A stretch of DNA of 64,000 nt from Candidatus Nitrosopelagicus sp. (GTDB lineage Archaea; Thermoproteota; Nitrososphaeria; Nitrososphaerales; Nitrosopumilaceae), in NCBI GenBank assembly GCA_028345575.1, contig JAOMDR010000002.1:1-64000 (forward strand), given 5' to 3'. Below the pieces are notes generated by a model, which worked only from the letters and a program-made list of their open reading frames with translations, was not told where the DNA came from and searched no databases. The position numbers and the translations under genes are program-made. Shown in pieces: positions 1,410 to 2,862 of the stretch (within the stretch, counting starts at the first letter, position 1; each line of letters starts with the position of its first letter).

Positions 1410-2012
1410 ATGGAATTTGCTAAAGAATTTTCAGCATTTCTTTATGAAAAAAAGATCATCAGATTTGGAGATTTCACATTAGCAAGCGGGAAAAAAAGCC
1501 CTTACTATATCGATCTTAGACTAGTTCCAAGCTTTCCCATATATTATAGAAAAATGATCAAGGGATTACAAAACTTGATTGCAGAAGACATAGGATTTGA
1601 AAATTTTCACTCACTAGTTTCTGTTCCAACAGGCGGACTAGTAGTTGCAGCATCACTTGCAACTGAAATTCTAAAACCACTCATCTATGTTAGAGATAAA
1701 CCAAAAGAACATGGAACAGGAAAAGCAGTTGAAGGTGTAATTTGTCACGACATGAAACTGTTAATGATTGAAGATGTTGTAACAAGTGGTGGCTCTGTAA
1801 TTAATGCAGTAAAATCAATCAAAGAAGAAAAGATGATAGTGACTGATGCGTATGCAATAGTTGATAGAATGGAGGGTGCAACAGAAGCATTACAAAATGA
1901 AGGTGTCAAACTTCACAGTCTTTTGACTATCAAGGATATTGCAGAAAATCTATTTGAGCAAAAATTAATCTCAGAAGACGTACTAAAGCAGGTTCAAGAC
2001 AGAATAAAGTAA
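1410..2012 (+). CDS. pyrE: Orotate phosphoribosyltransferase
   Basis: 200 aa; PRPP motif MLLIEDVVTSGGS-type (LLMIEDVVTSGGSVINAV), FxLxSGKKSPYYIDLR. Confidence 0.92.
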   Translation: MEFAKEFSAFLYEKKIIRFGDFTLASGKKSPYYIDLRLVPSFPIYYRKMIKGLQNLIAEDIGFENFHSLVSVPTGGLVVAASLATEILKPLIYVRDKPKEHGTGKAVEGVICHDMKLLMIEDVVTSGGSVINAVKSIKEEKMIVTDAYAIVDRMEGATEALQNEGVKLHSLLTIKDIAENLFEQKLISEDVLKQVQDRIK

Positions 2013-2016
2013 AAGG

Positions 2017-2079
2017 GGCAGCTCAGTCAAATGCCTTTACATCATTAATCAGGTATAACTCTGATTCTTCATTGCAGCC
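2017..2079 (-). ncRNA. Candidate C/D-box sRNA (2'-O-methylation guide)
   Basis: Minus strand reads GGCTGC-AATGAAGA(C)-ATCAGAGTTATAC-CTGA(D')-TT-AATGATGT(C')-AAAGGCATTTGA-CTGA(D)-GCTGCC. Flanks pair as a terminal stem with one U-U mismatch; two 12-13 nt guide segments; T-run follows. Confidence 0.6.
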
Positions 2080-2114
2080 ATTTCGATAACAATTAGCTGG
2101 AATTAAAATTTTAG

Positions 2115-2188
2115 TGGGCCCGATGGGCTTCGATCCCATGGCTCCTCGGTTATGAGCCGAGTACTCTACTAGGCTGAGTTACGGGCCC
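2115..2188 (-). tRNA. tRNA with CAT anticodon (elongator Met or Ile2)
   Basis: GGGCCCG...CTCGGCTCATAACCGAG...GGGATCGAAGCCC...CGGGCCCA cloverleaf; no encoded CCA. Confidence 0.93.
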
Positions 2189-2226: not shown

Positions 2227-2862
2227 TTAGCAGTAAGACTCGTAACAACTGTCTAACAAGAGATTTTGTGCTGCAACAGATTTTTCGGCTGTTGATAGCA
2301 TCACTGAGTCATCTACAGATGTATTATCGATGATTTTTTGCCAGGATGCTGCGTGTCTAATGTCAGCAGTCATGTGTTCTTCAAAGTATTCAATTGCATC
2401 TTTTGTATCAATGCCATAGAATTCTTTCAATCCTTCTAATTTGGTTTGACTTACTTTAGGAATTTCTTTTTCAAATGCATACATTGCACATGCACCATTA
2501 TCAAAGGAGTCCATAAGTGAGCCTAAATTGGATACTGCTCTTTTGGTTTTTTCAAGACCTTCATAGCCTTGTAGTTCGGATTCAGAAATTCCCATAGAAC
2601 CTGCAAATTTCTCCCATAGAGGAATGTGCTCTGATTCTTCGTTCATGTTCTGAATTAACTCATCTTTCATATCAGAAGATGCATCATTTACCATTGGTTG
2701 CATGAATTGCGGGACCTGTTTCACTAGTTGGTAGTACTCTTTAGAGTAGCCTTTGAGTGAATCTAGTTCCAGTTTTCCATCAGACCACATTTCGTAAAAT
2801 GGATGTTTGAGTAAACTTTTGTCTTCAATGATTTGATCGATTCGTTTGATTAGAGAACCCAT
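2227..2862 (-). CDS. TenA/PqqC/CADD-like haem-oxygenase-fold protein
   Basis: 211 aa; HPFYEMWSDGKL, EYYQLVKQVPQF, EESEHIPLWEKFA and HMTADIRHAASW metal-ligand-like segments. Confidence 0.7.
   Translation of the reverse strand: MGSLIKRIDQIIEDKSLLKHPFYEMWSDGKLELDSLKGYSKEYYQLVKQVPQFMQPMVNDASSDMKDELIQNMNEESEHIPLWEKFAGSMGISESELQGYEGLEKTKRAVSNLGSLMDSFDNGACAMYAFEKEIPKVSQTKLEGLKEFYGIDTKDAIEYFEEHMTADIRHAASWQKIIDNTSVDDSVMLSTAEKSVAAQNLLLDSCYESYC

Follow-up and report, generated by a model that had tools for sequence, protein, structure and literature searches.

Archaeal box C/D sRNAs are pictured in surveys as fast-evolving guides with a rapid turnover of guide sequences, and about 17% of their predicted sites are common to more than one species (PMC4644070, PMC7994747). 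According to Dennis et al., about half of these sRNAs are double guides, and helices 68-71 together with A1912 are predicted methylation hotspots in hyperthermophilic archaea (PMC4644070). On the eukaryotic side, Am2256 and Am2281 of yeast are methylated via snR63 and snR13, respectively (PMC5199042), and Am3739 and Am3764 of humans via U46 and U15 (PMC8817022). Hoeppner and Poole reported that early eukaryotic snoRNA families do not significantly resemble archaeal ones, with sR12/snR70 as the only known archaeal counterpart guide (PMC3511168).

In the window, that is, the whole 64-kb stretch of DNA analysed here, the minus strand of positions 2017-2079 very probably carries a gene for a double-guide box C/D sRNA, likely under a promoter of its own, and the RNA is proposed to guide methylation at two sites of the 23S rRNA. 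Its length of 63 nt, the C-D'-C'-D order, the k-turn stem, the guides of 12-13 nt and the direction of both guides to sites less than 100 nt apart on one rRNA are all shared with archaeal double-guide C/D sRNAs; in contrast to the rapid guide turnover described for these RNAs, the core of the D guide is kept here throughout the phylum (PMC4644070, PMC7994747). Specifically, the strand reads GGCTGC-AATGAAGA-ATCAGAGTTATAC-CTGA-TT-AATGATGT-AAAGGCATTTGA-CTGA-GCTGCC, a complete C-guide-D'-C'-guide-D layout plus a 6-nt terminal stem. An earlier note on this DNA had quoted exactly this sequence, and five of the six terminal pairs form, as it stated, bringing boxes C and D together in a k-turn. The features of the locus are the following:

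2017-2079, minus strand: box C/D sRNA of 63 nt, a conserved block with diverging flanks, matched by sequence models across class and phylum
2074-2079, minus strand: 5' arm of the terminal stem, GGCTGC, with covariation in 23 diverse relatives (0/500 shuffles)
2066-2072, minus strand: box C, ATGAAGA (consensus RTGATGA), from the sequence
2053-2065, minus strand: D' guide, ATCAGAGTTATAC, pairing with positions 2020-2029 of the organism's own 23S rRNA
2049-2052, minus strand: box D', CTGA, from the sequence and kept in relatives
2039-2045, minus strand: box C', ATGATGT, from the sequence and kept in relatives
2027-2038, minus strand: D guide, AAAGGCATTTGA, whose positions 2-11 pair with positions 2045-2054 of the own 23S rRNA
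2023-2026, minus strand: box D, CTGA, from the sequence and kept in relatives
2017-2022, minus strand: 3' arm of the terminal stem, GCTGCC, with covariation
2101-2108, minus strand: TATA-like box, TTTTAATT, the predicted own promoter of the sRNA, from A/T enrichment across sRNA loci
2114-2188, minus strand: tRNA gene (CAU anticodon), by exclusion a probable tRNA-Ile2, 34 nt upstream of the sRNA
1410-2012, plus strand: convergent phosphoribosyltransferase ORF (pyrE-like), 4 nt from the sRNA

The tRNA lies on the same strand and close to the sRNA, as the earlier note had described, but the gap measures 34 nt and not 35; the convergent pyrE stop does sit beside the sRNA 3' end, the ORF ending at 2012. 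The assignment of the tRNA to Ile2 derives from the other CAU tRNA genes, since one of them (L062, G000:C41:12630-12745) is probably an elongator tRNA-Met gene and another (L038) is initiator-like. L062 is about 116 nt long and has an apparent intron near the anticodon loop. Directly upstream of the window tRNA, on the same strand, lies an ORF of the TENA/THI-4/PQQC family (haem oxygenase-like; 2227-2862, minus strand).

The sRNA block is kept far beyond the genus. A 301-nt query recovers the locus, whole or in part, in 121 of 151 relatives, in many of which the tRNA and the 63-nt sRNA match at two separate places. Counting this one, 15 same-genus loci share all 63 nt without a change while their flanks vary, and in the next ring of relatives the D'/C' spacer, the 5' end of the D guide and the base preceding each D box take most of the changes. 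A first sequence model, built from ten sRNAs, finds the sRNA in 286 of the 330 class genomes and in 76 of 151 of the phylum; a second, broader model, built from 23 diverse members, finds it in at least 217 of 348 genomes and 94 of 149 genera of the phylum. Twenty weaker matches of the second model that were read are more than generic C/D boxes, since they keep the core of the D guide (GGCATT in 19, GGTATT in the other). Moreover, the terminal stem covaries among 23 diverse relatives, with 17 cells in which both sides change against 5.7 in shuffles, a covariation score reached by 0/500 shuffles. The conservation in related genomes proposed earlier as a check is thus found across class and phylum, with the boxes kept in relatives, and, judged by these matches, the sRNA is a member of a phylum-wide, unusually conserved family. 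One relative (G291) carries two strong copies, L189 (C32:920-982) and C18:49124-49187, by duplication or contamination.

This family is unannotated and absent from Rfam, and no description of it was found in the literature searched. In an Rfam search of the sRNA no family reaches its cut-off, nearly all the best sub-threshold matches being box C/D families; Pyrococcus-type sR17, sR9, sR14 and sR11 have similar boxes and spacing, but all stay below the gathering score and their guides are unlike. Literature searches found no account of Nitrosopumilus C/D sRNAs, and with the guide-core strings no archaeal RNA paper was among the matches listed.

A search for complementarity in the own 23S and 16S rRNAs and 30 tRNA genes places the best sites of both guides in the 23S rRNA, at 2018-2033 for the D' guide and at 2044-2060 for the D guide (the latter tied with one tRNA). 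The D duplex comprises exactly guide positions 2-11, with 10 contiguous Watson-Crick pairs at 23S 2045-2054, and the N+5 rule points to A2048 (E. coli A1938). The D' duplex, at 23S 2020-2029, has 9 Watson-Crick pairs (guide positions 4-12), a G-U at position 3 and an A-A mismatch at position 2, and by the same rule would mark A2022 (E. coli A1912, helix 69). The target strings implied by the earlier note do not occur exactly, yet both fit this one region. Both guides most likely target 23S sites 26 nt apart in the ribosome core, where ribose methylations are predicted. Considered singly against all rRNA and tRNA targets, the guides score 10.4 and 10.0, below the shuffled 95% levels of 11 and 11.6, so that the significance comes from the pair and from its evolution: the joint score of two sites at most 100 nt apart is reached by 0/400 shuffled guide pairs. 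tRNA targets were rejected, with scores near chance. The D' guide of several distant relatives is shorter by 1 nt, and by register the nucleotide predicted there is A1913 instead of the A1912 predicted here.

Across the phylum the 23S target hardly varies, so that covariation can be tested only to a limited extent, and the informative cases are few. In G526, the 23S sequence TAACTCTAA replaces TAACTCTGA and the guide TTAGGGTTA replaces TCAGAGTTA, with pairing kept. G368 and G422 carry other D' guides instead, TTACTCCCGGC and TTACCCCCG respectively, which match GCCGGGAGTAA and CGGGGGTAA in the 23S rRNA of each; both targets belong to this 23S place but are shifted about 9 nt upstream, and an A-to-G change in the target is answered by a T-to-C change in the guide. 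A similar shifted D' guide in G573, GTTACCTCCGGC, pairs with 23S GCCGGGGGTAAC with one G-U. By this comparison of sequences, the D' guide differs to match where the 23S of relatives differs. A swap of the D' guide for a 23S match about 9 nt upstream, with the D guide unchanged, is seen in some families of the phylum (L146, L147, L201, L202, L203, L208). Separately, an intron-like insertion, absent from this genome, splits the 23S genes of G096, G389, G092, G489, G439 and G391 (L156, L158, L168, L178, L179, L234) between the D' and D targets, where the two guides would span the splice junction.

Three other explanations of the locus have to be weighed against these data. That the site is a chance box-like sequence, or a decayed sRNA that has lost its target, could draw on the one position at which box C departs from the consensus and on the unremarkable scores of the single guides; however, phylum-wide conservation, the covarying stem and the guide-target covariation refute it in practice, leaving it a negligible probability. 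The box C deviation is common to close relatives, and RTGATG forms are seen in distant ones. Moreover, in a scan of both strands for the box order (C/C' with at most one mismatch, exact CTGA boxes, guides of 9-16 nt), 2017-2079 is the only site in the whole window, while Markov-simulated windows yield 0.067 expected sites and, in 60 simulations, no site whose stem reaches 5/6. The second explanation concerns the mode of expression: the sRNA would be the distal part of a dicistronic tRNA-sRNA, as the earlier note had suggested, read through from the tRNA promoter and freed at its 5' end by tRNA 3' processing. The 34-nt gap on one strand and the linkage to a CAU tRNA, seen within the genus and in several further genera but only in part of the family, would suit this idea. 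Conversely, across 62 distinct sRNAs the A/T content at -29 to -22 rises to 82-97%, with a TTTTAAA-like core (most of the sequence beyond -36 has roughly 40-70%), and the distance from this TATA-like box to the sRNA is constant at loci with and without the tRNA. The tRNA-sRNA spacing, in contrast, varies in the genus from 34 to about 46 nt, and no tRNA occurs in the fetched stretch at 35 of 40 divergent loci. As -29 to -22 is also the usual distance of an archaeal TATA box from a start at the RNA 5' end, an own promoter is the better reading, and the sRNA probably has one; the dicistron proposed earlier is disfavoured and appears very unlikely here. Dicistronic genes of this kind exist in other archaea, and about 20% of archaeal C/D genes are reported with such a promoter motif (PMC7994747).

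The third explanation accepts the RNA and its targets but alters its function, making it mainly a chaperone of rRNA folding whose guides keep helices 69-71 open or in register, with only the D site or neither methylated. Such a role has been proposed for double guides (PMC4644070). It would agree with the weakness of the D' duplex beside the box, where the mismatch at position 2 and the G-U at position 3 could render D' methylation inefficient, with the joint retention of both guides, and with the relocation of the D' guide within the same 23S region in some relatives. On the other hand, positions 2-11 of the D guide are perfectly paired and the D site is a known eukaryotic Am site, and even where the D' register shifts by one nt a paired A is kept at N+5 in the forms examined. 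A predominantly chaperoning RNA is improbable, and a two-site methylation guide is preferred.

As a methylation guide, the sRNA would assemble with L7Ae, Nop5 and fibrillarin, pair simultaneously with the two 23S stretches flanking the helix 69/helix 71 junction and direct 2'-O-methylation of A2022 by the D' guide and of A2048 by the D guide; it may also hold that 23S segment during folding. We infer that the gene is transcribed, that the RNP assembles, that methylation actually takes place and which nucleotide exactly the D' guide addresses. Nop5 is encoded in this genome, which is 86% complete and in which no fibrillarin above the cut-off was found, contig C41 ending inside nop5; in a same-genus genome (G028) the fibrillarin gene adjoins nop5 and overlaps its end, and fibrillarin is present in all seven relatives tested. 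The C/D-box identity originally put forward is thus upheld by the conservation, the covarying stem, the two adjacent 23S targets, the guide-target covariation, Nop5 in the genome and fibrillarin in relatives.

The two predicted sites can be set beside eukaryotic ones. The Rfam consensus of SNORD15/U15, AtU15 and snR13 (RF00067), GAGGCAUUUGUCUGA, contains this D guide and its D box in an identical register, whereby the D guide AGGCAUUUG with its D box marks the A that corresponds to Am3764, and the D site is the same as Am3764/Am2281. Against RF00067 the sRNA scores 18.2 bits, with a gathering score of 75, in a match limited to the 3' part. U46/snR63 direct Am3739/Am2256, which lies 25 nt upstream of the site served by U15/snR13 and in the spot of the 23S to which the D' guide points, and the D' site would lie at, or one base from, Am2256/Am3739, an equivalence that derives from the spacing, the eukaryotic sites Am2256 and Am2281 being 25 nt apart like A1913 and A1938. 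Two separate eukaryotic snoRNAs thus stand against one double-guide RNA here. A shared target dictates the guide, and since equal guides can arise independently, a common ancestral RNA is no more than a possibility. A line of descent that makes this family the archaeal counterpart of U15/snR13, and perhaps of U46/snR63, with one ancestral helix 69/helix 71 double guide that later gave rise in eukaryotes to two snoRNAs of one site each, is a speculative and rather unlikely proposal. A search of 84,980 genomes for a euryarchaeal-type compensated pattern of both guides gave one match, in a bacterial MAG and taken as chance; the pattern was built from assumed 23S sequences, and the result rejects that exact form only.

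Surveys picture archaeal C/D guides as fast-evolving, and a guide kept throughout a phylum contrasts with that picture. The family supplies a missing Rfam entry for ammonia-oxidising and other Thermoproteota-type archaea. Lastly, a guide directed to the region of the intersubunit bridge, and to sites also methylated in eukaryotes, would offer a concrete test of whether a modification guide predates eukaryotes.
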